This document shows, piece by piece, positions 9,824 through 53,664 of a stretch of DNA of 64,000 bases; position 1 is the stretch's first letter; every line of letters starts with the position of its first letter. A model generated the notes under the pieces. It made no database searches, was not told the origin of the DNA, and saw only the letters and a list, made by a program, of their open reading frames with translations. Where the stretch lies: contig CACOFQ010000004.1 in assembly GCA_902626505.1 (NCBI GenBank), forward strand, positions 51,333 to 115,332, written 5' to 3'. Origin of the DNA: an uncultured Marinoscillum sp. (GTDB taxonomy: Bacteria > Bacteroidota > Bacteroidia > Cytophagales > MED-G16). A program made the position numbers and the translations under genes.

Positions 9824-10801
9824 TTATTTTGTGTTTATTTTTATTCTTGTCAAAAACATATCCGATGTCATATATAAATATTCAAATTTTTCATCGAATG
9901 CACAATTTGCAGTTCTTACCTCAGTTCTGATTGTTCCAATGTGATCTCCATTTTCTTTTATAACTAATACTCCACCCGGTCCAGTGGCAAAAATATTCCC
10001 ACTAGGATGGACCTTTAATCCATCAAACAATCCTATATCTTTTTTTGTTAATTCTCTTCCATCAAAAAACACCTCAGGATTATTAACACCATCTTCAGAT
10101 AATTCATACTTCATGATAATTGGATTTTTATTATCTGAATTAGCCACGTATAAAGTTTTTTCATCATTTGAAATACTTATACCATTTGGTCTTGATAGAT
10201 TTTTTATAAGAACTTTAATATCACCATTTGGTGATAACATATATACACCATTAAAAGAAATTTCTTTTAATTTGTCATTATCACCTTCGAGTAATCCGTA
10301 TGGAGGATCTGTAAAAAAAAGATTTCCATTAGAATCATAAACTAAATCATTTGGACTATTGAATAATTTATTATTAAAAGATTTTACTAGAATTGATTTT
10401 TTATTGACATTTAAATTTTCAATTTTAGTAATCATTCTATCTCCATGCATACAAATTATAAGGTCTCCATCAGAATTAATTGTTAGGCCATTAGTTCCTG
10501 CTTTTTTAAGATTGGGTACTTTTCCACTATATCCAATTGGTTTTAAAAAAACACTTAGACCATTTTTTTCATTCCATTTATATATTACATTATTTGGAAC
10601 ATCTGAAAATAAAATGGAGTTCAGCTTTTCAGACCATATTGGACCTTCAGACCACTCAAATCCATTAGCAAGAATTTCTATTTTTGCTTCTGGATGAATT
10701 AGATCATTTATTTCATTAGACAACCTTTCTATAGAACCTAAATGTTTTTCTTGATTAAAATGAAAAAAAGAAAGAAATAATAGTGTTACATTAATTAACA
10801 T
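9824..10801 (-). CDS. SMP-30/gluconolactonase-like beta-propeller protein
   Basis: A 325-residue predicted secreted protein with a short hydrophobic N-terminus (MLINVTLLFLSFF). It carries the SMP-30/LRE-like blocks FEWSEGPIWSEKLNSILFSDVP, KAGTNGLTINSDGDLIICMHGDRMI, FNSPNDLVYDSNGNLFFTDPPYG, LSRPNGISISNDEKTLYVANS and GLFDGLKVHPSGNIFATGPGGVL. These are the usual metal-binding and active-site regions of calcium-dependent lactonases. Substrate is unknown. A clear paralogue is encoded at 34510-35532. The gene is convergent with apbE. Confidence 0.87.
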   Translation of the reverse strand: MLINVTLLFLSFFHFNQEKHLGSIERLSNEINDLIHPEAKIEILANGFEWSEGPIWSEKLNSILFSDVPNNVIYKWNEKNGLSVFLKPIGYSGKVPNLKKAGTNGLTINSDGDLIICMHGDRMITKIENLNVNKKSILVKSFNNKLFNSPNDLVYDSNGNLFFTDPPYGLLEGDNDKLKEISFNGVYMLSPNGDIKVLIKNLSRPNGISISNDEKTLYVANSDNKNPIIMKYELSEDGVNNPEVFFDGRELTKKDIGLFDGLKVHPSGNIFATGPGGVLVIKENGDHIGTIRTEVRTANCAFDEKFEYLYMTSDMFLTRIKINTK

Positions 10802-38224: not shown

Positions 38225-38296
38225 TGCAAGCATTGTAAGAAAAAAGGGTGGAAGACCGGACTCGAACCGGCGACCTCCTGAACCACAATCAGGCGT
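38225..38296. repeat. Left attachment repeat (72 bp)
   Basis: Identical over 72 bp to 49183-49254: it begins TGCAAGCATTGTAAGAAAAA and ends in ...CACAATCAGGCGT. It includes the tRNA-His 3' half from the D-arm edge through the anticodon GTG, T-arm and acceptor. By the usual geometry this copy holds the displaced chromosomal 3' end. Confidence 0.9.
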
Positions 38297-38340
38297 GTCT
38301 TCGACGCGCTTCGCTTACTAACAAACTGAACTACAGTCAC
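38247..38340 (-). pseudogene. Degenerate tRNA-His-like remnant at left junction
   Basis: On the minus strand the 3' half is identical to tRNA-His, and the 5' half reads GTGACTGTAGTTCAGTTTGTTAG, clearly related to GGTGGTTGTAGTTCAGTTGGTTAG but with changes in the acceptor strand. About 19 extra bases (around AAGCGAAGCGCGTCGAAGAC) are inserted at the D-arm/anticodon-stem junction. The acceptor cannot pair with the 3' strand and no TAnnTTTG promoter lies upstream. It is therefore not a functional tRNA gene; the 5' half probably came with the element. Confidence 0.75.
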
Positions 38341-38374
38341 TTACACTACTCTTAAATTTAATGTTTAAGTAAAA

Positions 38375-38392
38375 GTGCCAAATAAGTGCCAA
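38375..38392 (+). repeat. Element-end repeat GTGCCAAATAAGTGCCAA, left copy
   Basis: An 18-bp sequence also found in the same orientation at 49137-49154, inside the other end. It contains two GTGCCAA units 11 bp apart. The left copy covers the presumed GTG start of the integrase gene. Its position inside both element ends fits an arm-type binding site for integrase or an excision factor; this is inference. Confidence 0.6.
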
Positions 38393-39432
38393 AAAATAGT
38401 ATAAGTTATCCCAATGTCTGTAAGAAATCTGATGGTAGATACTTTATAGATTTTAATCTGAATGATAGGAGGTATAGGCTGTTTAGCGGTAGGATGATTC
38501 ATTCATCTTTAAGACCAAATACCTATCCAAAAAAATTAAGATTAGGTAAAGCAGTCCTTTTAGCTAAAGAGGTTTATGATTTCTTAGTAAAGAATAATTA
38601 TTCATTTGAAAAGAAGATAAGTTCATTAGAGTTTTTTGATAAAATCATTGATAAGAAATTACAAGAACCTTTATCTGATAGATACAAGAAAGAACTTAAA
38701 TCTCTGTCAGACAAACTTAGAAAGCAATTGGCCTTTAAGGGGGAGATTTCTTTGGACTATTTAGACTCTATTCCCCTTAGATATAATAACAATACCAGTT
38801 ACAATACAATTAGAAGATACCTGAATGTTTTAGTGAACTATTTATATGAAAATAACTTTCCTATTGAGAAGTCTAAACTCAAGTCAAGAAAACAAGAAGA
38901 GACTCTTCATAAACCCATAGAGGAAGTAAAAGAATTACTTACTAAGGTAAAGGCCTTTAATGAAGATTTGTATCTCTGTTGTTTGCTTACTTATGGGTGT
39001 CTATTAAGACCTCATCAGGAAATACGATTACTTAAATGGGAGGACTTCACAAGTGATTTATCTCATATAAGATTATCAGGAAATCAGGTAAAATCTAAAC
39101 GTAACAGGATAGTTCCAGTAAGCCCTAAAATAAGAGAAACTCTTAAAAGAAAAGAAGGCCATTTAAACATCTTTACTGGCCTTAAACAGCCTTATAGCAG
39201 AAGCTATTTTATACAGCTTTGGAGACGTTTTAAGAGACTCAATCCAGGGGTTTGTAAAGAGATAACCTTGTACTCTTTCAGACACTCAGGGGCTATAGAA
39301 ATCTTTAAAAGAACAGGCTCAATCACTAAGCTACAGAAGGCTATGGGACACTCATCTATGACAGTAAGTTTAACCTACTTACGGGGATTAGAAGTTGCTG
39401 AATTAAAGGAAGAAGATATGCCTATTTTTTAA
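38386..39432 (+). CDS. Tyrosine recombinase/integrase of the element
   Basis: A 348-residue site-specific recombinase. An N-terminal arm/SAM-like DNA-binding region is followed by the catalytic domain with box I CLLRPHQEIRLLKWED (Arg), the box II region LYSFRHSG (Arg-His; Tyr replaces the first His, as in many Bacteroidota integrases), AMGHSSMTVSLTYLRG (His and the nucleophile Tyr). The start is GTG at 38386, within a repeat; another GTG at 38375 is in a different reading of the same repeat (not in frame). It lies 90 bp inside the left attachment repeat and transcribes into the element, as expected. Confidence 0.93.
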   Translation: MPKNSISYPNVCKKSDGRYFIDFNLNDRRYRLFSGRMIHSSLRPNTYPKKLRLGKAVLLAKEVYDFLVKNNYSFEKKISSLEFFDKIIDKKLQEPLSDRYKKELKSLSDKLRKQLAFKGEISLDYLDSIPLRYNNNTSYNTIRRYLNVLVNYLYENNFPIEKSKLKSRKQEETLHKPIEEVKELLTKVKAFNEDLYLCCLLTYGCLLRPHQEIRLLKWEDFTSDLSHIRLSGNQVKSKRNRIVPVSPKIRETLKRKEGHLNIFTGLKQPYSRSYFIQLWRRFKRLNPGVCKEITLYSFRHSGAIEIFKRTGSITKLQKAMGHSSMTVSLTYLRGLEVAELKEEDMPIF

Positions 39433-42272
39433 ACAGATACTATATCTTCAATAAATGTATTTACAAAGCTCATAATCTTATCAATCACTCTTGTAGTGTT
39501 TTTTTGACGGGATAAAAGACCCTCCTTTTTCTTCATTGATTCCATTACCTTATTTCTTATATCAGGCACTTGGTTTGCAAATAAATACTCATCAACAATT
39601 TTTTCAATTTGTGAATTATCAAGGTCTTCTTCCTCACATAAAGTATTAAATGCCTTAATTTTCTTTTCACCCCAAAAAGATTCAAACTTATCTGCCACTT
39701 CATCTGAATTTTCAATGCCATCAAGATTTTTTTCAATGAATTCCTCTATAAGTTCTTTCTTACTTCTTAGTTTAATATCTCCTGACAGAATATCTGAAAT
39801 TTGTTTCTTTTTACGTTCAAAGCTTTCCCCTTTTGTTCCTACTAAAGAAGAAAGTAATTCGAGAATGTATGCAACATTGATAACATCTCTGTGCATTAAT
39901 TCTAATTCAAAATCAATATCATCTAAAGCAGATACTTCCTCCTTATCGGTATTACTTTTTGCTTTTTCATATATATCTAAATATTTACTTCTATAATCAT
40001 AAAACTCTTCCTCGGACATTTCTAAATCATCAAATGAAAAATCAGCAAAAGAACTTAGAGTGTTTTGTACTCTCATCAAATTTCTAAAAGCTCTCACGAA
40101 CTGAACTTCTTCTTTCTCAGATTCTAATGAATTAACGCTATCTACTGTAGGAGCTATCTGTTTTACCATTTCCATCGCCTCATTAAATTCTTCTAAATAA
40201 TCCCCATATGGTTGCAATAATATTATTTCATTTGCCTCTTTATTTGAGAATAATGCAATTGCTTCATCCGTTGCCTTTTTAAGATTTCTAAACGATACAA
40301 TATTACCGTGTGACTTGTTTTTATTTAATATCCTATTCGTTCTTGAAAACGCTTGAATTAGTCCGTGGTGTTTCAAGTTTTTATCTACATATAGAGTATT
40401 TAACGGCTTGCTATCAAAACCAGTAAGAAACATATTTACTACAAGAAGAATATCTATCTCTCTGTTTTTCACCCGTCTTGCTATATCTCTGTAATAGTTA
40501 TAATATAGTTGACTATCTCTTGTTGAATATTGTGTGCCAAACATCTTAGCATAATCATTCATAAATTCATCAAGTTTCTCTCTACTATGTCTTGACTTAG
40601 GTGTGTCTTCAACAGCAAACATATCTTCATCAAAAGTTGTTATGCCATCAGCATCTTCATTCTCCTCGTTGGCTGAGTAAGAAAAAATAGTAGCTATTTT
40701 TAATTTATGGTCTTTGGATTTAAAGAGGTCATAATATTTTATTAATGTTTCAACACTGCTTACCGCAAACATTGCTGTGAACTGCTGATTAACAGTTTTT
40801 ATTTTATGGTTATCAATGATGTAATCTGTTATTTTATTTAAGCGGTCTTCGTTATCAAAAAGTTCTTTCTTATCAATTGCCTCTACATCTATGTCTCTGT
40901 AGTTTGAACTATTTTTTTCTTTATATCTACCTACGTATTCAATTGAAAATTTTAATACATTTTCATCACGAATAGCATCCGTTATCACATACTTATGTAG
41001 GCAATCTCCAAAAAGTTCTTTTGTAGTTCTTTTTCCTAACTGATTCTTTACAGCATTATCAGCAAATATTGGAGTTCCTGTAAATCCAAACATCTGATGA
41101 TTATTAAAATATTTTACAATGCGTTTATGAGTCTCTCCAAATTGGGAGCGGTGACACTCATCAAATATGAAAACTATTTTTTTGTCTTTAAGAGCCTGCA
41201 TCGATGAAGCATAACGTTCTCCTCCAATTGCATTATTCAACTTTTGAATAGTAGTTACTAATAGTTTAGTATCATCACCAAATTGTTTTACAAGTGCTTT
41301 GGTGTTTGCGGTTCCATCTACACTGCCCTTTGAAAAATTATTAAACTCAGCTGTTGTTTGGCTATCAAGGTCTCTTCTATCTACAACAAAAACTACCTTA
41401 TGAACCTCTGGCATATGCGTTAATATCTGACTTGCCTTAAAAGAGGTGAGCGTCTTACCGCTACCAGTAGTATGCCATATGTAACCGTTTTTATTTGTAT
41501 TTTTTACTTTGTCAATTAACTTTTCAATTGCATAGTATTGGTATTGTCTTAATACCATCAGCTGCTTCGCAGACTCAGCAAGCACAATGTACTTACATAT
41601 CATTTTTGACAAATGACAAGGCTCTAAAAATTCATCTGCAAACTCAGGGAGGTTAGTGATTTTATTGTTATTCTCATCAGACCAGAAAAAAGTCTGTTTA
41701 AAATTTAGATATTTAATATGGTTATTGGCAAAGTACTTTGTATTAACTCCATTACTTATTACAAAAAGCTGTACATACTGAAATAGTGCAGCTCCACTAC
41801 CAAATGATTGTTCTTTATATCGTAATATCTGCCTATGTGCTTCTCCAAGTTCATATCCTCTTCTTTTAAGTTCTATTTGAACAAGTGGCAATCCGTTAAT
41901 TAAAATGGTAACATCATAGCGGTTTTCATATTTACCGTCTATTGTTATTTGATTGGTAACTTGAAACTCATTTTTACACCAATCTTTTTTGTTGATAAAT
42001 TCAAAGTATACAGTTTCTCCATCATCCTTTATAATATGGTGTTTTATCTCTCTTAATGTTTTGGCTCTATCGTAAACTGAACCTTCATTTAAAATATTAA
42101 GTACCTTCTTAAACTCATTATCTGTGAAAGTGATTTTATTATGTTTTTCTAATTGGACTTTGAGATTTGCAAGAAGCGCTTCTTCATTATTTACATTCAC
42201 AGGTGCGTGACCTAAGGAATGGAGCTGCTTAAGTAGTTGTTGTTCTAATGCTTGTTCGCTTTGTCTTGCCAT
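39429..42272 (-). CDS. hsdR: Type I restriction enzyme, R subunit
   Basis: The motor and nuclease subunit of a type I restriction complex. The 947 residues (from ATG 42272) begin with an R-protein nuclease domain: YDVTILINGLPLVQIELKRRG supplies the D...ExK residues. Then the SF2 translocase has Walker A HTTGSGKTLTSF, Walker B VFIFDECHRSQFG, motif III FTGTPIF and motif VI QAFSRTNRIL. The ORF track begins at TTG 42281; ATG 42272, 2 bp after the hsdS stop, is a better start (MARQSEQ). It closes the hsdM-hsdS-hsdR operon and is convergent with the integrase (4-bp overlap). Confidence 0.95.
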   Translation of the reverse strand: MARQSEQALEQQLLKQLHSLGHAPVNVNNEEALLANLKVQLEKHNKITFTDNEFKKVLNILNEGSVYDRAKTLREIKHHIIKDDGETVYFEFINKKDWCKNEFQVTNQITIDGKYENRYDVTILINGLPLVQIELKRRGYELGEAHRQILRYKEQSFGSGAALFQYVQLFVISNGVNTKYFANNHIKYLNFKQTFFWSDENNNKITNLPEFADEFLEPCHLSKMICKYIVLAESAKQLMVLRQYQYYAIEKLIDKVKNTNKNGYIWHTTGSGKTLTSFKASQILTHMPEVHKVVFVVDRRDLDSQTTAEFNNFSKGSVDGTANTKALVKQFGDDTKLLVTTIQKLNNAIGGERYASSMQALKDKKIVFIFDECHRSQFGETHKRIVKYFNNHQMFGFTGTPIFADNAVKNQLGKRTTKELFGDCLHKYVITDAIRDENVLKFSIEYVGRYKEKNSSNYRDIDVEAIDKKELFDNEDRLNKITDYIIDNHKIKTVNQQFTAMFAVSSVETLIKYYDLFKSKDHKLKIATIFSYSANEENEDADGITTFDEDMFAVEDTPKSRHSREKLDEFMNDYAKMFGTQYSTRDSQLYYNYYRDIARRVKNREIDILLVVNMFLTGFDSKPLNTLYVDKNLKHHGLIQAFSRTNRILNKNKSHGNIVSFRNLKKATDEAIALFSNKEANEIILLQPYGDYLEEFNEAMEMVKQIAPTVDSVNSLESEKEEVQFVRAFRNLMRVQNTLSSFADFSFDDLEMSEEEFYDYRSKYLDIYEKAKSNTDKEEVSALDDIDFELELMHRDVINVAYILELLSSLVGTKGESFERKKKQISDILSGDIKLRSKKELIEEFIEKNLDGIENSDEVADKFESFWGEKKIKAFNTLCEEEDLDNSQIEKIVDEYLFANQVPDIRNKVMESMKKKEGLLSRQKNTTRVIDKIMSFVNTFIEDIVSV

Positions 42273-42273
42273 A

Positions 42274-43566
42274 TCACACAAACATTTGTTGTAAAAGTCC
42301 TTTTTTAAAGGCCTTGGTATTTTCTATTTGGGTGTTAACTAAATCTATCTTTTTGTCAATAGCGGATAGAAAATTGGATATTTTTTGTTGTTCGTCTAAT
42401 GAAGGTAATCTTAGAGGTAATAGTTTTAAATCTTTAAGTTTAATACTTTTAAAAGAACTTCCTGTACTATTACTTTTAAGGTACCACTTTGAATCAGCAT
42501 TATTTAAAATAAAATATAAAAAATAAGGTTTAATTATGCTTTTTGCTCTGAGCATAAAAACAGACTCATTTATATTCCAATTAATTGGTTCTTCTTTTAG
42601 TAAATATGATTCTCCAACATTTCCAATACTTGACATAATAATATCATTTTTTGTCAGATTAGACCTTTTGGATATCATTTTCATTGCATCATCATCTATC
42701 TTTTCTGCTTTATCAAAATTTAATTTGCCATTATCTATATTCTTTATTGTTATATAATAATTATTTCCAAAACCAAGTTTGAAGTTTCTTCTTGGATTTA
42801 AACCTGTTGAAGTTCTTTCTAAAACCTCACCCAACTTCTTCTCCTCCCAATCAGGATATTTGTTTCCATTATCATCTTTAAAGCGTAACTCTTGGGAGAA
42901 GATTTTCTGCATTACGCCTTTTTTGTATTCGTTTAATAATTCTTTTTTTTTAGTTAGTTGTTTTAATTTATCATCTACAGAATTTAGGAAAGAAGTTATC
43001 TTTTTTTGTTCCTGATATTCAGGAATACTGAGTTTAACTTTCCCTAATCTACCAGTTGCAATACCTAACACTTTAGTCCCTTGAGCAATTACCATAACCT
43101 GTTTTCTAACTTTCCAGGTTTGCATTAAGTAAGTAGCAAATCCTTTAGCCATTTTATACTTATTTGGTCTTGCCAGAAATGTATGAAGCCCTGCTAAAAC
43201 CTTTTTATTATTAATATTAATAAGTTCAATAGTTTTTCCAATATCTTCATAATCTTCAGATGCATCTGCAACTACTAAGTCACCTTCTCTACAGTATTTT
43301 TCTTCATTATATTTACTTAAATCAACGTCATTATTTATTAGAGGGACCAATTCTTTAGTTAAATCAAATAAACTTGAAAACTTTGTGTGGATATCCCCAT
43401 AATGGATATTAAATACTTTGCCACTTTCATAATTAAGCTTATCTCTGGATAAGGAATTAGTAGAATAAAAATTATATATATCTCCATATAATTTTACGTT
43501 CCAATTTTTTTTAAAAGAAGAAAATCTTTTTTTAGGAAGTGTATTTTCAATTTTTAAGTCCATCAT
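42274..43566 (-). CDS. hsdS: Type I restriction enzyme, S (specificity) subunit
   Basis: The DNA-recognition subunit, 430 residues, with two variable target-recognition domains separated by conserved helices. The first repeat ends IPEYQEQKKITSFLNSVDDKLKQLTKKKELLNEYKKGVMQKIF and the second ends LPSLDEQQKISNFLSAIDKKIDLVNTQIENTKAFKKGLLQQMF, the classical tandem arrangement. The two recognition domains set a bipartite target that cannot be read from sequence. It begins 1 bp after the hsdM stop (start ATG adjacent) and overlaps nothing important downstream. Confidence 0.95.
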   Translation of the reverse strand: MMDLKIENTLPKKRFSSFKKNWNVKLYGDIYNFYSTNSLSRDKLNYESGKVFNIHYGDIHTKFSSLFDLTKELVPLINNDVDLSKYNEEKYCREGDLVVADASEDYEDIGKTIELININNKKVLAGLHTFLARPNKYKMAKGFATYLMQTWKVRKQVMVIAQGTKVLGIATGRLGKVKLSIPEYQEQKKITSFLNSVDDKLKQLTKKKELLNEYKKGVMQKIFSQELRFKDDNGNKYPDWEEKKLGEVLERTSTGLNPRRNFKLGFGNNYYITIKNIDNGKLNFDKAEKIDDDAMKMISKRSNLTKNDIIMSSIGNVGESYLLKEEPINWNINESVFMLRAKSIIKPYFLYFILNNADSKWYLKSNSTGSSFKSIKLKDLKLLPLRLPSLDEQQKISNFLSAIDKKIDLVNTQIENTKAFKKGLLQQMFV

Positions 43567-43567
43567 A

Positions 43568-45136
43568 TTATAAAGGCGGTTTAATATTTAGTTCCTTACA
43601 AAAACCTTCAATGGATTTGTCTATGTTACTAATATCACCATCTAATGATTGTAATTCATTACTAACTGATTCTAAATCAACTGGCTCCTCTTCTTCAAAA
43701 GTATCTACATATCGAGGTATGTTTAGGTTATATTCATTCTCTTTGATTTCATCTATTGAAGCTACATAACTGTACTTATCTTCAGTGTTTCTATTTCTGT
43801 AGGTATCTATTATTTTACCTATATGCTCTTTTCTTAGTACATTTTGCTTTCCAACTTTTTCAAATCCTTCTGAAGCATCTATAAATAGTATATCTTCATC
43901 CTGTTCTCTACATTTCTTAAATACCAAAATGCAGGTAGGTATGCCTGTTCCGTAGAATACTCCTCCAGGAATTCCGATAACTGCATCTAAGTAATTCTTT
44001 TCTTCTATCAAATATTTTCGAATATGCCCCTCAGCAGCGCCTCTAAATAATGCTCCGTGAGGTAATACTGTCGCCATAGTTCCATTCTCTGCTAATTGAT
44101 GTATCATATGTTGAACAAAAGCAAAATCAGCTTTACTTTTTGGTGCTAACTTACCGTATTGACTAAAGCGGTCATTTTGCAGGTGTATTGGATTTGCACT
44201 CCATTTAGCACTAAAAGGCGGATTGGCAACAATAGCCTCAAAACGCTTATCAAAATGTTGAGGGTTTTCTAAAGTGTCTTCTTGTTTTATATCGAACTTC
44301 TTATAATGCACATTATGAAGTATCATATTCATTCGTGCTAAGTTGTAAGTAGTATTATTCATTTCCTGTCCATAAAATGCGGAGACTTCTTTCACTTCTT
44401 TTGCAACACGAAGGAGTAGAGACCCAGAACCACACGTTGGGTCGTATACATTTTTTAATTTCTTTTTTCCTGTTGTAACAATTTTGGCTAATATCATAGA
44501 AACTTCTTGAGGAGTATAAAACTCACCAGCCTTTTTTCCTGCACCACTTGCAAACTGTGCAATGAGGTATTCATAAGCATCACCCAATACATCAAGCTCA
44601 GAATTTTCTAACTGAAAATCTATTTTATCTAAGTGAGCTAAAACCTTAGCAATTAGAGTATTTTTTTGTCCATCTTCTTTACCCAGTTTAGGTGAGGTAA
44701 GGTCTAAATCCTGAAACAAACCACCAAAGTCATCTTCACTATCTGTTCCTGTTGTACTTTGTTCAATATTTCTAAGAATATTTTTTAAATCTTCTATAAT
44801 AAAAGTTTCTCCACCATCTGAAGAGTTGCCCTTAGCTGATATGTGAGAAAATAATTCAGAGGGTTTTAGGAAATAACCCAACTTACTCAATGATTCTTTT
44901 TGAATTGCATTTAGATATTCTTTTCCATTAGAAGTATTTTCATTTAAGTCTTCGTACAAAAGATTATCTTCTTTTAATAATTTATTAGCATATAGGTGCA
45001 TTCTTTCTGATAGATACTTAAAGAAAATAAAGCCTAATATGTAATCTCTGAATTCATCAGCATCCATTTTTCCCCTAAGGGTATCTGCAATATTCCATAA
45101 TTGCTGTTCTAATTGTTTCTTTTGGTCTTCAGACAT
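43568..45136 (-). CDS. hsdM: Type I restriction enzyme, M (adenine methyltransferase) subunit
   Basis: N6-adenine methyltransferase subunit, 522 residues. The N-terminal HsdM domain (LWNIADTLRGKMDADEFRDYILGFIFFKYLSERM) is followed by the AdoMet-binding motif I NVYDPTCGSGSLLLRV, the GEFYTPQEVS block and catalytic motif IV ANPPFSAKW. All are intact. It is the first gene of the hsdM-hsdS-hsdR operon; the 84-codon gene upstream points the same way with an 87-bp gap. Confidence 0.96.
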   Translation of the reverse strand: MSEDQKKQLEQQLWNIADTLRGKMDADEFRDYILGFIFFKYLSERMHLYANKLLKEDNLLYEDLNENTSNGKEYLNAIQKESLSKLGYFLKPSELFSHISAKGNSSDGGETFIIEDLKNILRNIEQSTTGTDSEDDFGGLFQDLDLTSPKLGKEDGQKNTLIAKVLAHLDKIDFQLENSELDVLGDAYEYLIAQFASGAGKKAGEFYTPQEVSMILAKIVTTGKKKLKNVYDPTCGSGSLLLRVAKEVKEVSAFYGQEMNNTTYNLARMNMILHNVHYKKFDIKQEDTLENPQHFDKRFEAIVANPPFSAKWSANPIHLQNDRFSQYGKLAPKSKADFAFVQHMIHQLAENGTMATVLPHGALFRGAAEGHIRKYLIEEKNYLDAVIGIPGGVFYGTGIPTCILVFKKCREQDEDILFIDASEGFEKVGKQNVLRKEHIGKIIDTYRNRNTEDKYSYVASIDEIKENEYNLNIPRYVDTFEEEEPVDLESVSNELQSLDGDISNIDKSIEGFCKELNIKPPL

Positions 45137-45223
45137 AATTATTTAAAATGATATTTAAATTTAATATTTTGATTAGTCTTTAAGGAAAAAAAGGAATTAA
45201 TTCTTAATTATGGTGATTAACTA

Positions 45224-45478
45224 TCAATCTGAATCTTTAGTCAATCTATCTATTATTTCTACTGTGAAGTTTTGTTCTTCTTGTTCTTCTATTATTTGAG
45301 ATTTAGGAATGATGTATTGAAGTCCTATTTGTATGAGTTTTATCTTTTGATTAGAGTTCATTACTGAGATATCTAAACTATCTATTGTTTCATCTATGAT
45401 TTGAGATAACTTCTCCTTAACCTGACTTGATATCTTGTTTGGAGTACCTTTCTTTCTACCTCCTGTTTTAACTCTCAT
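45224..45478 (-). CDS. Small basic GRKKGTPNK-type protein (putative DNA-binding)
   Basis: An 84-residue protein starting MRVKTGGRKKGTPNKISSQVKEKLSQIIDETIDSLDI. The glycine-arginine-lysine opening resembles an AT-hook-like or nucleic-acid-binding arm seen at the N-terminus of many small phage and island proteins (including some terminase small subunit relatives). The rest is helical and ends acidic. It lies upstream of hsdM in the same direction, so a regulatory or accessory role is conceivable, but none is known. Confidence 0.6.
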   Translation of the reverse strand: MRVKTGGRKKGTPNKISSQVKEKLSQIIDETIDSLDISVMNSNQKIKLIQIGLQYIIPKSQIIEEQEEQNFTVEIIDRLTKDSD

Positions 45479-45510
45479 TGTATCTATTTAAATCTATTTT
45501 AGACTACTTC

Positions 45511-45518
45511 TATATTTG
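45511..45518 (+). promoter_or_regulatory. Candidate -7 element of the putative ncRNA
   Basis: TATATTTG matches TAnnTTTG exactly. No TTTG lies 19 bp upstream, so the match is partial. Transcription would start near 45523, just before the structured region. Confidence 0.4.
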
Positions 45519-45522
45519 CTTT

Positions 45523-45793
45523 TGTTAGATTTTTGTTTGAAGTCAAGACACACTTCCCCCATAGGAGGAAGGTGTTTTGCTTCCGTTTAGTTCTCGCCAG
45601 TTAGCAAGACATAGAGCTACAATCATATAACATTGCTCTAATCTGAGAGTATTTGGGTACCTATATGATTTGTACCCCCCGCGAGGCATCTCTCCTGCAC
45701 TTGCCTTGTCCCTATATGCTACTTTCTTGGGACTTTAAAATATAGACCGAAAGGTATTTAGCCGAAAAGTCTATGATTACATAGCTTTTTTTT
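45523..45793 (+). ncRNA. Candidate structured non-coding RNA in the defence element
   Basis: About 270 nt with at least four local inverted repeats: ACACTTCC/GGAAGGTGT (45550-45575, one bulged G), TAGAG..CAAT/ATTGCTCTA (45612-45640), a 6-bp GGGTAC/GTACCC stem with 11-nt loop (45655-45677), and GTCCC/GGGAC (45708-45733). A CCGAAAGG tetraloop stem lies within ATAGAC/GTCTAT (45742-45774), and CTATG-ATTA-CATAG plus T8 ends the region. No ORF overlaps it. I do not recognise it as tmRNA, SRP RNA, RNase P, 6S RNA or a known riboswitch. The plus orientation rests on the terminator; function unknown. Confidence 0.5.
45771..45793 (+). terminator. Terminator-like hairpin ending the putative ncRNA
   Basis: CTATG ATTA CATAG (5-bp stem) followed by C and eight T. 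The stem is short with two G:C pairs, so strength is uncertain. Its left arm is shared with the alternative ATAGAC/GTCTAT pairing. Confidence 0.5.
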
Positions 45794-45817
45794 ATTATAT
45801 AACTCCATAGAAATCCG

Positions 45818-45848
45818 ATTTTGCATTTTGGAATAAAAATTTTAGATT
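45818..45848 (+). promoter_or_regulatory. 31-bp twin block, copy 1 (promoter of DUF262 gene)
   Basis: ATTTTGCATTTTGGAATAAAAATTTTAGATT, differing from copy 2 (47705-47735) at one base. TTTG, 19 bp, TAGATTAC approximates the Bacteroidota promoter and places the transcription start at about the ATG (45855), predicting a leaderless mRNA. Alternatively it is an operator shared by the two genes. Confidence 0.6.
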
Positions 45849-45854
45849 ACTTTA

Positions 45855-47675
45855 ATGATAAATTCAGCAAGAGCAAATAGTTTGTCTGATTTATTTAATC
45901 AGGATAAATCTCTTATATATTTTGTTCCAAAATACCAGAGGGAATATATATGGTCAAAAAAGAACTGGGAACTTTTATTTGATGATATAATAACAAATGA
46001 TGAGGAACATTTTTTAGGATCTATTATTTGCATAAATACTAAAGTTGATTCATTAAAAGAAGATAAATTAGAGCTTATAGATGGCCAACAAAGAATGACA
46101 ACTTTGAGCTTGTTGTTGTTAGCTTTATACACTCATATGAAGTCGATTCCTATTGATAATTTAGATGAAAATGAAAAAGAAGAATTAAATACTGATTTAA
46201 TAAATTTAAAATATAGATTATTACTTAAGTCAGATAAAAGTAAACTTAGAATAGAGCCATCTATTTCAGGAAATAATAAAGAAGATTATTATTATTTATT
46301 TTCTCATAAAGTTGATTTTTTAGGCAGAGATTTACATCATAAACCATTAAATGCTGGAAATAGAAGAATTGTTAGGTGTTATAGATATTTTTTGGAGAGA
46401 CTAAAAGAGGAAAAAAATTTTAAAGATATTGGAGAGCCAATTTATAATTTAGATAAAAGTAAAGCATTACTTGCTAAAATCTATTCCTCAACTTTAGTTA
46501 AAATAGAAGTAAATACTCATTCTGATGCGTTTACTTTGTTTGAAACTCTAAATAATAGAGGCATACCTTTATCCCCTCTTGATCTTATAAAGAATTCCTT
46601 TTTAAATGAATCTGAAAAAGTAGATCCTGATTCATTAAATGAAAATTTTGAAAAATGGAATAAATTAATATCTAATCTTTCAGATGAATATGCAATTCAA
46701 GAAAGATTTTTAAGACATTTTTATAATGCTCACAAAAATAATCCTGATGTTGAAGTAAAAGGCAAGAATAGAGCTCTTAGATCAAATCTTATTGAGATTT
46801 ATGATAAACTTATTAAAAGAAATCCAAAATACTTTTTTAAAACTTTAAATATCAGTTCAGAAATATACAGTCAATTAATAGATCCAAATAATGAAAGTAA
46901 TACTGAGAGTATATCAAAAAGTTTAAGGGATTTATTAAATATTGGTGGAGCTCCATCATATGCTCTGATTTTATATGTATTTGAAGAGTGTAATATCAAT
47001 GAGGAAAAAAAGATAGAACTTATAGAATATCTTGTTAAATTCTTTTTAAAAAGAAATATATGTGATTCTCCACCAACAAGAGATCTTGATACTATATTTA
47101 TAGAAATCATAAAAAAATTATATAATCAAGGTTCTTATGATATAGGTATTATAAAATCTCACATTGAGAATTTATCTAATTATCCTTTAAATGAAATTTT
47201 TATAAAAAGATTAAAAGCAAGCTTATATGATGAAAATGTTGGTTCAACTCGTTTCATATTATGTAAGATTGAGGAATTAAATTCGACTAAGGAAACTTTT
47301 GTTGATTTATGGGCTAAAGATAGTTCAAATAAATATGTATGGACTATAGAACATATCTTTCCTCAAGGTGCTAATATTCCAGATGAATGGGTAAATATGA
47401 TAGCAAATGGAAATCTTAAAAATGCAGAAAATATACAAGAGGAATTAGTACATACAATTGGGAATCTTACTTTGACAGGTTATAATTCAAAACTTTCTAA
47501 TTTGTCCTTTCTTAAGAAGAGAGATAGAAAAGATCAAAATCAAAAACCTGTGGGATACAAAAATGGTTTGTTTTTAAATAATGAATTAAAAGACAAAGAC
47601 CAATGGAGAGAAGAAGATATAAGAGAAAGAGGTGAGTTTCTTATAGATTTAATTATTAAATATATTAATTCTTAA
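45855..47675 (+). CDS. DUF262/DUF1524 nuclease, GmrSD-like (type IV restriction-type)
   Basis: A 606-residue protein joining an N-terminal DUF262 domain (FVPKYQREYIWSKKNWELLFDDI, then LELIDGQQRMTTLSLLLLALY, the ParB-like nucleotide-binding DGQQR motif) to a C-terminal DUF1524 His-Asn-His nuclease (YVWTIEHIFPQGANIP, then LVHTIGNLTLTGYNSKLSNLSFLKKR). Proteins of this architecture include GmrSD and BrxU, which cut modified phage DNA in a nucleotide-dependent way. All key motifs appear intact. It opens the plus-strand half of the cargo and its start lies 6 bp after a 31-bp promoter-like block. Confidence 0.9.
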   Translation: MINSARANSLSDLFNQDKSLIYFVPKYQREYIWSKKNWELLFDDIITNDEEHFLGSIICINTKVDSLKEDKLELIDGQQRMTTLSLLLLALYTHMKSIPIDNLDENEKEELNTDLINLKYRLLLKSDKSKLRIEPSISGNNKEDYYYLFSHKVDFLGRDLHHKPLNAGNRRIVRCYRYFLERLKEEKNFKDIGEPIYNLDKSKALLAKIYSSTLVKIEVNTHSDAFTLFETLNNRGIPLSPLDLIKNSFLNESEKVDPDSLNENFEKWNKLISNLSDEYAIQERFLRHFYNAHKNNPDVEVKGKNRALRSNLIEIYDKLIKRNPKYFFKTLNISSEIYSQLIDPNNESNTESISKSLRDLLNIGGAPSYALILYVFEECNINEEKKIELIEYLVKFFLKRNICDSPPTRDLDTIFIEIIKKLYNQGSYDIGIIKSHIENLSNYPLNEIFIKRLKASLYDENVGSTRFILCKIEELNSTKETFVDLWAKDSSNKYVWTIEHIFPQGANIPDEWVNMIANGNLKNAENIQEELVHTIGNLTLTGYNSKLSNLSFLKKRDRKDQNQKPVGYKNGLFLNNELKDKDQWREEDIRERGEFLIDLIIKYINS

Positions 47676-47704
47676 ACTGTCAAATAACTGTCAGACCTAC
47701 CTCT

Positions 47705-47735
47705 ATTTTGCATTTTGGTATAAAAATTTTAGATT
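47705..47735 (+). promoter_or_regulatory. 31-bp twin block, copy 2 (promoter of PD-(D/E)XK-like gene)
   Basis: ATTTTGCATTTTGGTATAAAAATTTTAGATT ends 5 bp before the ATG at 47741. TTTG, 19 bp, TAGATTGA approximates the promoter consensus; the transcription start is predicted at or next to the ATG. There is no room for a leader. Confidence 0.6.
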
Positions 47736-47740
47736 GAAGG

Positions 47741-48352
47741 ATGGGGAAATTCAAAGAAATAAAAGCAAGTCCGAAAACTGGAAAAGAAAGTTTAACAGAT
47801 AATGGAAAGAATACAAACTATAATTTGTTTGACTTTTGGAGATGGAGCGTATCTGACATATTAAGTAATGCAACTCGTGGAAGGTTTGCTGAGTTTGTTG
47901 TTGGAACAGCAGTTGGACTTAATCCTAAAAATTTAAGAGACGAATGGGATGCTTATGACTTGACAACTGATGATGGAATCAAAATAGAAGTTAAATCTGC
48001 AGCATACATCCAAAGTTGGAAGCAAAAGAATTTTTCTACTATTTCTTTTTCTATTAAACCTGCCAGATATTGGGATGCAGAAACCAATATTCAACAAGAA
48101 AAACCAAAAAGACACGCTGACATTTATGTATTCTGTCATTTAAAACATAAAGACCAGAAAACTATTGACCCACTAAAAATGGAGCAATGGGATTTTTATG
48201 TTTTACCAACTTATCAACTTGACAATTATACAAGAAGTCAAAGTTCAATCACGATTAATTCACTAAAAAAAATGACTGAACCAAAAAAGTACAAAGAATT
48301 AAAAAACGAGATAACGAAAGCATATAAAGAACAAAAAAACTCCCAACCTTAA
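47741..48352 (+). CDS. PD-(D/E)XK-like nuclease family protein, unknown specificity
   Basis: A 203-residue protein. The segment NATRGRFAEFVVGTAVGLNPKNLRDEWDAYDLTTDDGIKIEVKSAAYIQSW has the order expected of a PD-(D/E)XK core: a helix glutamate (RFAEF), an aspartate (WDAYD), the E-x-K (IEVK) and a downstream glutamine (IQSW). Such small proteins often accompany restriction systems. The remaining part is basic and helical. Its promoter block duplicates that of the neighbouring DUF262 gene, implying joint regulation. Catalysis is inferred from motif pattern only. Confidence 0.7.
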   Translation: MGKFKEIKASPKTGKESLTDNGKNTNYNLFDFWRWSVSDILSNATRGRFAEFVVGTAVGLNPKNLRDEWDAYDLTTDDGIKIEVKSAAYIQSWKQKNFSTISFSIKPARYWDAETNIQQEKPKRHADIYVFCHLKHKDQKTIDPLKMEQWDFYVLPTYQLDNYTRSQSSITINSLKKMTEPKKYKELKNEITKAYKEQKNSQP

Positions 48353-48360
48353 AGGCCTTA

Positions 48361-48375
48361 AAAGATTGATTAATC
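48361..48375. repeat. AAAGATTGATTAATC repeat, middle copy
   Basis: The same 15-bp sequence occurs at 49118-49132 (continuing CAAAGGTGCC, here CGAAAGGTGC) and at 38171-38185. This copy includes the stop codon of the 257-codon ORF, whose start lies in the 49118 copy. Confidence 0.6.
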
Positions 48376-49143
48376 GAAAGGTGCAAGTTCACTAATTCTA
48401 TGGTTTCTCTCTTTAATAAATTTCATTAAATTATTTTTATATAATCTATATTCCTCAACATTATTTGGTAAAGGAGAGCCATTAAACCCATTAAAAGGAA
48501 TCCAATATTTAATTGATGAATAATTTTCATTAACAAGGTCTTGAAGAAGAAAAAAATTAACATATTCTTTAAAATTTTCAAACAAATAAAAAAATTGAGA
48601 GTATCTCTTGAAGGTATTACTAAGTGGACTATCTTCATTAGAATAAAAACGCCTTATACATTCTAAAGTAAGGTCAAACCTATCTTTAATTTTTCTATTT
48701 AAACCACGAGAAGCGTTTATGGTCATTTTTTTATCTACTTGTTTTGAAGGAAAAATAATATAACCTCCAATAGTACTACACACAGAAAAAAATTGGTCCA
48801 TTTCAAAGTTTGGAATTTTATTAATAATTGGAGCCATTTGATTTGTGTATCTGTAAGTATGACTAATAGAATCGCTGGACAAAGTAAACTCTCCTAATTC
48901 TGACTTATGACAAAGAACTCTTGCAAGATTATCATTTAAATCAAACTTTAAACCAGAAGGCAAAGGTTTACTCCATAGAAGTTTGTGATAATTTCGAAGA
49001 GTTGGACTATAAGAGTCTGGGTCCTTTCCTTTAGGTGTATCAGAATAAACATCAAAAGTTACATCAATATAATTGTCCACTATTTTTTTTAATGAGAGAT
49101 ACTTAAATGTATTGAAAAAAGATTGATTAATCAAAGGTGCCAA
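48370..49143 (-). CDS. Unrecognised 257-residue cargo protein
   Basis: The ORF starts with TTG at 49143 (MAPLINQSFFNTF), inside the element-end repeat, and ends within another copy of that repeat. Conserved-looking blocks are DTPKGKDPDSYSPTLRNYHKLLWSKPLPSGLKFDLND, HKSELGEFTLSSDSISHTYR, and RFDLTLECIRRFYSNEDSPLSNTFKRYSQFF. This looks like a family of uncharacterised proteins in island regions (possibly DUF6994-type; not verified). No catalytic motif recognised. A later start is possible. Base composition resembles its neighbours in the element. Confidence 0.6.
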   Translation of the reverse strand: MAPLINQSFFNTFKYLSLKKIVDNYIDVTFDVYSDTPKGKDPDSYSPTLRNYHKLLWSKPLPSGLKFDLNDNLARVLCHKSELGEFTLSSDSISHTYRYTNQMAPIINKIPNFEMDQFFSVCSTIGGYIIFPSKQVDKKMTINASRGLNRKIKDRFDLTLECIRRFYSNEDSPLSNTFKRYSQFFYLFENFKEYVNFFLLQDLVNENYSSIKYWIPFNGFNGSPLPNNVEEYRLYKNNLMKFIKERNHRISELAPFD

Positions 49144-49154
49144 ATAAGTGCCAA
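49118..49154. repeat. Right-end repeats: AAAGATTGATTAATC and GTGCCAAATAAGTGCCAA
   Basis: A palindrome (TTGATTAATCAA) with a flanking A-run (T-run on the minus strand), immediately followed by an 18-bp copy of the left-end repeat 38375-38392. On the minus strand the palindrome plus T-run could terminate tRNA-His transcription 70 bp downstream. It is in the element just inside the right attachment repeat. Confidence 0.6.
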
Positions 49155-49182
49155 GATTTTATATCTTTATAGGTAAGAGAAG

Positions 49183-49254
49183 TGCAAGCATTGTAAGAAA
49201 AAAGGGTGGAAGACCGGACTCGAACCGGCGACCTCCTGAACCACAATCAGGCGT
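49183..49254. repeat. Right attachment repeat (72 bp)
   Basis: Identical to 38225-38296. It supplies the 3' part of the functional tRNA-His after integration, so the tRNA gene stays usable although its 3' half is element-derived. Confidence 0.9.
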
Positions 49255-49279
49255 TCTAACCAACTGAACTACAACCACC
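49205..49279 (-). tRNA. tRNA-His (GTG anticodon), integration site
   Basis: The minus strand reads GGTGGTTGTAGTTCAGTTGGTTAGAACGCC, anticodon arm CTGATTGTGGTTCAG with anticodon GTG, then GGTCGCCGGTTCGAGTCCGGTCTTCCACC. The G-1:C73 feature of tRNA-His is present and CCA is not encoded; six T follow at once. The T-arm (GCCGG/CCGGT) is normal, but acceptor positions 5:68 and 6:67 are U-U mismatches. The promoter on the chromosomal side shows that this is the transcribed copy. The element lies directly downstream of its 3' end. Confidence 0.9.
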
Positions 49280-50786: not shown

Positions 50787-52967
50787 ATGTCAAATATCAC
50801 TTTTAATTCAGACGAATTTTCTTCCAGGCATAATTCAATTTCTAAGCAGGAAGAAAATTTAATGTTAAAACAAATTGGTGTCAAATCGGTAGATGAACTA
50901 ATAAATCTTACAATACCTGATTCAATTAGATTAGAAAATGATCTTAATCTAGAAAAACCAAAAACTGAGAATGAATTTTTATCTCATTTTAAAACTCTTG
51001 CCTTAAAAAATAAGAAATACAAATCTTATATTGGAACGGGCTATTATGATTGTTTTACTCCCAATGTAATTAAAAGAAATATATTAGAAAATCCTGGTTG
51101 GTATACTGCGTACACTCCATACCAAGCAGAAATTGCTCAGGGAAGGATGGAAGCTCTTATCAATTATCAGACTATGGTTACTGACCTTACTGGAATGGAA
51201 ATATCAAACGCTTCCTTGTTAGATGAAGGCACCGCAGCATCTGAAGCAATGACAATGTTTTTTAGGGTAAGGAAAGGATCGAAGAAAAAAGCGTTTAAAT
51301 TTTTTGTTTCAAATAAAATTTTTCCTCAGACAATAGAGCTTTTAAAAACAAGGTCTGAACCGCTTGGTATTGAACTAGTAATTGATGAACTAGATAAGTT
51401 TAATTGTGGAGATGATTACTTTGGTGCTCTTTTCCAATACCCTGATAATGATGGTAATATAGTTGATCTGTCATCTTATTTAGAGAAAGCTAGGAGTAAA
51501 TCAATTTTCACATGTGTCGCTTCTGACTTAATGAGTTTAGTTCTTCTAAAATCTCCTGGTGAAATGGGTGCGGACGCAGTTGTTGGAAATTCCCAAAGAT
51601 TTGGAGTGCCAATGGGATATGGAGGACCTCATGCTGCTTTTTATGCCACAAAAGAAGAATTTAAAAGACATATACCCGGAAGAATTATAGGTGTAAGTGT
51701 TGACTCAGCTGGTAATAATGCTTATAGAATGGCTTTACAGACTAGAGAACAGCATATAAAAAGAGATAGAGCTACATCAAATATTTGTACAGCTCAGGTC
51801 CTTCTATCAGTAATGGCAGGGATGTATGCTGTATATCATGGCAAAGACGGATTAAAAAAGATTGCTACAAAAATTGCTTCTCTAACTCAGTTGCTTGAAA
51901 ATGGAATTTCTAGTTTAGATTTTAATCAAGAAAATAAAAACTTCTTTGATACTTTAAAAATTAAGGTAACATCTGAAGAAAAGGATAAGATTAAGAAAGT
52001 TGCTGAAAAGAATCATCTAAACTTTAGATATTTTGAAACAGACTATATTGGTATTTCGCTAGATGAAACCACTCAAGTTTCTGACGTTCTAGATATTCTT
52101 AATATCTTCTCGGAAGTATCTGGAAAATCTTTAGAAATTAACTTAGATAATATTGATGATTTAAAACATAACATTTCAGCAAATCAAATTAGAAGTTCGG
52201 AATTTTTATCTCACGAGGTATTTAACAAATATCATACTGAGCATGAAATTTTAAGGTACATGAAGAGGTTAGAAAATAAAGATTTATCTCTTGTTCATTC
52301 GATGATCTCACTGGGCTCTTGTACAATGAAACTTAATGCTACAACAGAAATGATTCCTGTAACGTGGGAGGAAATGAATCTTCATCCTTTTGTTCCAACG
52401 GATCAAGCTCAGGGGTATTCAGAAATGATAAATAGTTTAAATACTTGGTTATGTGAAATTACCGGTTTTTCAGCTATATCATTTCAACCAAATTCCGGTG
52501 CTCAAGGTGAGTACACAGGCTTAATGGTCATTAGAGCATATCATCTTGATAAGGGAAATGATAATAGAAATATTGCATTAATTCCATCATCTGCTCACGG
52601 AACAAATCCAGCTTCTGCAATAATGGCTGGGATGAAGGTAGTAGTAGTTGCATGTGATAAACATGGTAATATTGATTATGATGATTTAAAAGAGAAATGT
52701 GAACAACATTCTGAGAATTTAAGTTGTCTAATGATAACATATCCATCAACTCATGGGGTGTTTGAAGATAAAATTTTAGAAGTATGTAATCTAATACATG
52801 AAAATGGTGGATTAGTATATATGGATGGAGCAAATATGAATGCTCAGGTAGGATTAACTAATCCAAAAAATATTGGTGCTGATGTTTGTCACCTAAATCT
52901 TCACAAGACATTTTGTATACCTCACGGGGGGGGGTGGGCCAGGAATGGGGCCAATAGGTGTAGTTGA
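50787..52967 (+). CDS. gcvP: Glycine dehydrogenase (decarboxylating), P protein, N-terminal part before a frameshift
   Basis: The P protein of the glycine cleavage system decarboxylates glycine with pyridoxal phosphate and passes the aminomethyl group to the lipoylated H protein. This 5' reading frame (726 aa) contains both family halves up to the PLP site LNLHKTFCIPHGGG, then shifts and reads WARNGANRCS. Blocks such as YIGTGYYDCFTPNVIKRNILENPGWYTAYTPYQAEIAQGR and MISLGSCTMKLNATTEM are typical. A run of nine G at 52926-52934, where eight would keep the frame (HGGGGPGMGPIGV), breaks the gene. Corrected length is 958 aa, normal for the family. Confidence 0.95.
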   Translation: MSNITFNSDEFSSRHNSISKQEENLMLKQIGVKSVDELINLTIPDSIRLENDLNLEKPKTENEFLSHFKTLALKNKKYKSYIGTGYYDCFTPNVIKRNILENPGWYTAYTPYQAEIAQGRMEALINYQTMVTDLTGMEISNASLLDEGTAASEAMTMFFRVRKGSKKKAFKFFVSNKIFPQTIELLKTRSEPLGIELVIDELDKFNCGDDYFGALFQYPDNDGNIVDLSSYLEKARSKSIFTCVASDLMSLVLLKSPGEMGADAVVGNSQRFGVPMGYGGPHAAFYATKEEFKRHIPGRIIGVSVDSAGNNAYRMALQTREQHIKRDRATSNICTAQVLLSVMAGMYAVYHGKDGLKKIATKIASLTQLLENGISSLDFNQENKNFFDTLKIKVTSEEKDKIKKVAEKNHLNFRYFETDYIGISLDETTQVSDVLDILNIFSEVSGKSLEINLDNIDDLKHNISANQIRSSEFLSHEVFNKYHTEHEILRYMKRLENKDLSLVHSMISLGSCTMKLNATTEMIPVTWEEMNLHPFVPTDQAQGYSEMINSLNTWLCEITGFSAISFQPNSGAQGEYTGLMVIRAYHLDKGNDNRNIALIPSSAHGTNPASAIMAGMKVVVVACDKHGNIDYDDLKEKCEQHSENLSCLMITYPSTHGVFEDKILEVCNLIHENGGLVYMDGANMNAQVGLTNPKNIGADVCHLNLHKTFCIPHGGGWARNGANRCS
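52926..52934 (+). other. G9 tract causing the gcvP frameshift
   Basis: Nine consecutive G in the codons for the PLP-loop glycines. Removing one G restores the GGGGPGMGP reading. A G9 run is striking in such AT-rich DNA. It is either an assembly/sequencing error or a slippage-prone tract in the real genome. Confidence 0.85.
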
Positions 52968-53664
52968 AAAATTAGTAAAGTATCTACCAAGAAATATATT
53001 TGAAGATTATGATGACTCTAACATAACACCAGTATCTAGTGCACCATATGGTAGTGCAAGTATTCTCGCTATATCATACTCTTATATTTCTATGATGGGG
53101 GGTAATGCATTAAAAAAAGCAACAGAACTATCAATATTAAATGCTAATTACATTAGGTCAAGACTTCAAGATCACTATCAAGTTTTATATAAAGGTATCA
53201 ACGGTACGAGTGCTCATGAATTTATTATTGATTGCAGAGAATTCAAGTCAGATACTGATGTTGAGGTAGAAGATATTGCGAAAAGGCTAATGGATTATGG
53301 TTATCATGCTCCGACGGTTTCTTTTCCAGTACCAGGTACAATGATGATAGAACCAACTGAAAGTGAAACTAAAGCTGAGCTTGATAAGTTTTGTGATGTT
53401 ATGATTGAGATTAGAAACGAAATAGAAGAGATCAGAAATGGAACATATGATAAAGAGAATAATGTCTTAAAAAACTCACCCCATACTGCTTCAGTTGTAA
53501 CAGCTTCATCATGGATATTCCCGTACACCAGAGAAAAAGCTGCTTATCCATTAGATTTTGTTTCCTCCAATAAATTTTGGCCTTCAGTCGGAAGAATAGA
53601 TAATGCACATGGAGATAGGAATTTATTTTGTAGCTGTATACCACTTGAGGAATATTCTTCTTAA
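52945..53664 (+). CDS. gcvP: Glycine dehydrogenase P protein, C-terminal part after the frameshift
   Basis: The remaining 239 codons continue the P protein in the next frame (MGPIGVVEKLVKYLP, SAPYGSASILAISYSYISMMGG, ILNANYIRSRLQDHYQVLY, HEFIIDCREFK, YGYHAPTVSFPVPGTMMIEPTESE) to the usual C-terminus (KFWPSVGRIDNAHGDRNLFCSC). It is not a separate gene: the annotated start is an internal methionine next to the G9 tract. No other disruption is seen, which argues against long-standing decay. Confidence 0.92.
   Translation: MGPIGVVEKLVKYLPRNIFEDYDDSNITPVSSAPYGSASILAISYSYISMMGGNALKKATELSILNANYIRSRLQDHYQVLYKGINGTSAHEFIIDCREFKSDTDVEVEDIAKRLMDYGYHAPTVSFPVPGTMMIEPTESETKAELDKFCDVMIEIRNEIEEIRNGTYDKENNVLKNSPHTASVVTASSWIFPYTREKAAYPLDFVSSNKFWPSVGRIDNAHGDRNLFCSCIPLEEYSS

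Follow-up and report, generated by a model that had tools for sequence, protein, structure and literature searches.

A patch at positions 45523-45793 of the window (the whole 64,000-nt stretch of DNA analysed here, located in a 1.55-Mb draft genome of an uncultured Marinoscillum sp.) lies between defence genes, and it raises the question of whether it specifies a functional RNA and, if so, from which strand and in the service of which genes. The original prediction described it as a structured RNA of the plus strand, and some of its basic observations hold. The patch is non-coding, its longest internal ORF being 48 aa, and G/C is retained in AT-rich surroundings, the GC content being 0.41 vs 0.29 window-wide, a value that only 0.03% of 261-nt windows reach. 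Folded as a single sequence, the patch is more stable than its dinucleotide shuffles on both the plus (z = -3.7) and the minus strand (z = -2.9). A search of the Rfam 15 covariance models gave no match at or near the gathering score for either the window copy or the G008 copy described below, in keeping with the claim that this is not a known housekeeping RNA.

Homologues, covariation and strand

We found two homologues of the RNA, in the genomes G002 and G008, both of the same genus and both with islands at the same tRNA-His. The G002 RNA is 97% identical to the window copy, and the G008 copy, which was detected by a covariance model of 199 positions (E = 7e-21), is ~69% identical over 165 nt and sits between the tRNA-His and small ORFs. 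The models R1 and R2 represent the plus strand and R3 the corrected minus-strand structure; R1 and R2 also recovered the homologues. No further credible copy was found among ~800 genomes, drawn from the order, the class and a related group, the large sets being searched with strict filters that weak copies could escape. Those weak covariance matches elsewhere that we inspected were coding DNA (ccoN in G366 and G812, other genes in G003 and G001), and the remaining matches at 15-29 bits were not credited, nor was one in G634 that scored 28.7 bits with R2 but 13.9 with the corrected R3. Short blastn matches in other genomes mostly hit the AT-rich promoter-like part, phage records gave no match, and the single 31-nt match in plasmid records is at chance level. 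Searches of viral contigs with six exact DNA patterns found none, and the integrase had no relative there.

The window, G002 and G008 sequences share a minus-strand structure of 53 base pairs in nine helices, all paired in 3/3 sequences, a percentage that is flattered by the derivation of the structure from these same sequences, so that more weight is due to the number of double changes and to the column-shuffle z. In this set of three sequences, which represents only two diverged lineages, 15 pairs are changed on both sides, compared with a mean of 4.9 after shuffling, and 0/500 shuffles reach 15; the signal is lost when the partners are slid by 1-3 columns. The consensus fold of the window and G008 copies is stronger on the minus strand (-44.5, z = -6.35, 0/200 shuffles) than on the plus strand (-29.3, z = -4.16), where the pairing contains 6 double changes in 20 pairs. 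Two A.C mismatches of the plus strand become G.U when read as minus strand, all pairs are preserved only when minus-strand G.U counts as a pair, and the unpaired bases are A-rich on the minus and C/U-rich on the plus strand. The compensating paired mutations in the second lineage show that the patch holds a real folded RNA, and the stronger minus-strand consensus fold, the pairs that depend on minus-strand G.U and the A-rich unpaired bases lead us to conclude that the conserved structure lies on the minus strand, opposite to the earlier proposal. The covariation analysis that had been suggested as a check was therefore positive, and the predicted RNA does fold and covary, while the strand assigned to it was wrong. 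Several of its plus-strand particulars did not hold: the stem at 45634-45651 and the GAAA tetraloop hairpin (ACC-GAAA-GGU) are not conserved in the diverged homologue G008, nor are the proposed TAnnTTTG element, which is TATATTTG at 45511 and is accompanied by a poor -33 box, and, by alignment, the U-run at 45786-45793 that had been read as a terminator-like end.

Between the window and G002, the patch carries 7 substitutions in 271 positions, compared with 5/49 at the synonymous sites of the adjacent small ORF (p = 0.02) and 20/146 once the integrase (tyrosine recombinase) is pooled in (p = 3e-5). Evolution slower than at the neighbours' synonymous sites, together with the covariation, supports the view that selection maintains the RNA.

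The coordinates of the helices are given in Table 1. Read 5' to 3' on the minus strand, the predicted order is P1, P2, a junction perhaps closed by P3, P4 with P5 and P6, P7, the loop-loop helix between P6 and P7, P9 and the tail. P3 competes with the base of P9. In the three copies the tail can also pair with the 5' strand of P1, at p = 0.37, 0.04 and 0.05, which scarcely exceeds random expectation.

Table 1. Coordinates in the window of the RNA, its predicted elements and the neighbouring features
Feature	Position	Strand	Remarks
Mobile island, ~11 kb, at tRNA-His	38225..49254	.	exact 72-bp direct repeats 38225-38296 and 49183-49254
Tyrosine recombinase of the island, adjoining the first repeat	38386..39432	+	Pfam PF00589, E = 2.4e-12
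84-aa small ORF, KTGGRKKGTPNK start, downstream of the RNA on the same strand	45224..45478	-	protein identical in G002; relatives in mobile elements and phages
Conserved structured RNA	45520..45780	-	5' end about 45780, 3' end about 45520, both approximate; 53 pairs in 9 helices, 15 double changes, minus consensus fold, homologues in G002 and G008
P1 hairpin	45742..45774 (45768-45774 with 45742-45748)	-	4/7 pairs double-changed, none broken
P2 hairpin	45708..45733 (45729-45733 with 45708-45712)	-	3/5 pairs double-changed
P3, tentative junction-closing helix	45545..45707 (45702-45707 with 45545-45550)	-	paired in 3/3, one-sided changes only
P4, enclosing P5 and P6	45645..45694 (45690-45694 with 45645-45649)	-	3/5 pairs double-changed
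P5, inside P4	45686-45688 with 45680-45682	-	
P6 hairpin	45655..45677 (45672-45677 with 45655-45660)	-	1 double and 1 one-sided change, none broken
P7 hairpin	45607..45644 (45635-45644 with 45607-45617)	-	10 pairs: 2 double and 1 one-sided change
Loop-loop (kissing) helix, 9 bp, P6 loop 45662-45670 with P7 loop 45621-45629	45621..45670	-	2 double changes, 1 change to G.U, none broken
P9, long hairpin near the 3' end	45539..45583	-	folds of window and G008; length varies between lineages; alignment too gapped for covariation
Near-invariant A-rich tail CAAAAATCTAACAAARGCAA before the ORF start	45516..45535	-	19-20/20 bases kept in G008

The mobile island and its cargo

The RNA is carried by a mobile island whose second 72-bp repeat overlaps the tRNA-His (49204-49278) and whose cargo in the window consists of a type I R-M system, a GmrSD/DUF262 protein, a 203-aa protein and a DUF6994 protein. 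The island of G002 uses the same tRNA-His site and the same recombinase, and has in common with the window a block (45222-45848, 97.6% identity) that contains the 84-aa ORF and the RNA, whereas its cargo differs and includes neither type I R-M nor GmrSD (DUF262) genes. Since the RNA recurs in G002 beside different cargo, we conclude that it is part of the core of the mobile island and does not depend on which defence genes are carried; the functional tie to defence that had been read from its position is not supported. Between G008 and the window island, only the tRNA-His, the flanking chromosome and short attachment-site repeats align beyond the RNA.

A specific attachment site and an integrase are present in the island, namely, the 72-bp repeats at tRNA-His and the tyrosine recombinase, and no primase or AlpA-like regulator was found among the island proteins using Pfam; the island may be a phage satellite. 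As the cargo of small marine satellites can include restriction systems along with further genes for defence (PMC10803314), the position of the RNA between defence genes needs no special link.

Several other features of these islands were observed. The final 40-60 bp of the recombinase gene (window 39372-39433) recur at cargo-gene junctions in related islands (L003 9346-9382; L060 6283-6331 and 9614-9674; L062 13558-13624), and the end of this gene looks like a possible insertion site for successive cargo, as in an integron-like cassette array. A 31-bp leader repeat precedes cargo start codons in the window (45818-45848 and 47705-47735) and in L003 (ORFs at 10771 and 8738), and reads TTTTGCATTTTGGWATAAAAATTTTAGATT in the window and before L003 10771; inter-island homology blocks stop at this repeat, and other cargo genes of L003 are preceded by a related, shorter leader. 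The motif AAAAGATTGATTAATC occurs three times at island edges or junctions (window 38170, 48358 and 49119), which may be secondary attachment sites. The 203-aa protein encoded after the DUF262 gene (47741-48352) matches nothing in Pfam, PHROGs, NCBIfam or PADLOC, and is a candidate for an unnamed defence partner. The gcvP gene (glycine dehydrogenase, window 50787-53664) is split by a frameshift near 52950 at a G-rich run, possibly a sequencing error; gcvP is intact in G002 (958 aa).

The downstream small genes and a possible leader function

The RNA is followed on the same strand by a small ORF in the window, G002 and G008, and no terminator was found between the RNA and the small ORFs in any of the three. 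The 84-aa ORF of the window differs from that of G002 by five synonymous and no nonsynonymous changes, indicating that it is under purifying selection. In G008, a 125-aa ORF comes first, followed by a protein starting MPFQEGNQYGKTTKRGEGKITSEIRER that is cut by the contig end; this second gene product is of the same N-terminal type as the 84-aa protein. Neither Pfam nor NCBIfam has a family that matches the 84-aa protein. In viruses, proteins that share its GGRKKGTPNK start are often encoded just ahead of a terminase large subunit, as confirmed with Pfam in six loci.

Small proteins with a KTGGRKKGTPNK start are encoded immediately upstream of TerL in the diverse viral contigs L019, L024, L026, L028, L031 and L032, which suggests that such proteins form an unnamed small-terminase-like family. 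When the 84-aa protein itself was compared with TerS, no Pfam or PDB match was obtained, its structure model is helical with low confidence, and its similarity to the phage relatives is mostly the N-terminal motif. A TerS-like role is possible for it on account of this motif and the gene position, without a profile match.

Our preferred reading, held at slightly below even odds (a probability of roughly 0.48), is that the RNA is a cis-acting 5' leader controlling a small operon of the island, which itself may be phage-satellite-like. The operon would consist of the 84-aa gene in the window, and of the 125-aa gene and then the same-type gene in G008. Control in cis would come from the fold, which would either make the A-rich tail ahead of the start codon accessible or mask it, or else bring about premature termination; should the small protein resemble a small terminase, a packaging or mobilisation step of the island would be gated by this leader. 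We favour this reading because covariation and strand agree with it, because the order of RNA and ORF is constant with no terminator between them, because the near-invariant A-rich tail abuts an ORF under purifying selection, and because, in phages, relatives of the small protein are encoded just before the terminase large subunit. Against it, the first downstream gene differs between the window and G008, a relative of the small ORF is present in L060 without such an RNA upstream, and the proposed switch between the tail and P1 is barely beyond chance. The minus-strand sequence preceding the RNA revealed no clear promoter of the Bacteroidota type.

Alternative explanations and known systems

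The minus-strand RNA might instead stand alone and act in trans, perhaps after processing from a leader transcript, by regulating genes of the island or of a helper phage or by forming a complex with the small protein. Its compact multi-helix fold with a loop-loop helix would suit such a role, for which the processed leader RNA that gives satellite phage P4 its immunity, CI RNA (PMC4825925), is a precedent; however, neither lineage has a terminator between RNA and ORF, and the unpaired stretch with the highest conservation lies right against the ORF, which leaves this a rather unlikely, tentative alternative. It is less likely still that a discrete RNA with this loop-loop core and the adjacent TerS-like protein jointly serve packaging, mobilisation or immunity of a phage-satellite island, beyond regulation of the downstream gene, and would thereby represent a new class of mobile-element RNA. 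The hairpins could also matter as DNA, in a packaging site or an origin of replication or transfer: both strands fold better than shuffles, and the patch adjoins a possible TerS-like gene and is conserved apart from the cargo. We consider a DNA-level element improbable in view of the strand asymmetry, that is, the stronger minus consensus fold, the keeping of all pairs only with minus-strand G.U, and the A-rich unpaired bases.

The idea of a plus-strand RNA, either serving the defence genes as a regulator, an antitoxin-like RNA or a sensed component, as originally proposed, or forming the leader of the DUF262 gene, draws on the TATATTTG box and the U-run that flank the RNA on that strand in both the window and G002, and on the DUF262 gene that follows in the window. 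This is very improbable, since G002 carries the RNA with other cargo, the plus-strand side in G008 holds no gene between the RNA and the tRNA, the box and the U-run are not conserved there, and the plus consensus fold is weaker; nothing was found in support of an antitoxin-like or sensed-component role, and the DUF262 leader was rejected because of the missing gene in G008. Single-sequence folding by itself is weak evidence and would be compatible with a protein-gene remnant or a chance fold, but we find such an origin hardly credible given the lack of a long ORF, the low substitution rate and the 15 compensatory pairs, and a decayed protein gene was rejected on these grounds.

The RNA constitutes a covariation-supported family absent from Rfam, and serves as a marker for the conserved core of those small islands that swap defence cargo among related marine bacteria; a sequence-structure model is now available for finding more members. 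If it is indeed a leader, it would provide RNA-level control of a mobility gene in defence islands of Bacteroidota. Like structured 5' leaders such as riboswitches, protein-binding leaders and attenuators, it has several helices and immediately precedes a gene in the same orientation, but it has no Rfam family and no visible attenuator terminator. The island resembles phage-inducible chromosomal islands and PICMI satellites (PMC6092414, PMC10803314) in its specific integration site, integrase, small size, defence cargo and possible TerS-like gene, and differs from them in having no AlpA-like regulator or primase. The P4 CI RNA shares with the putative leader described here that it is structured and comes from an integrated element, although the island here is only a possible satellite; P4 CI RNA pairs with two complementary sites, none of which was found here. 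With no sequence or structure relation seen between the two, the P4 CI RNA is the nearest working precedent by role, not by family.
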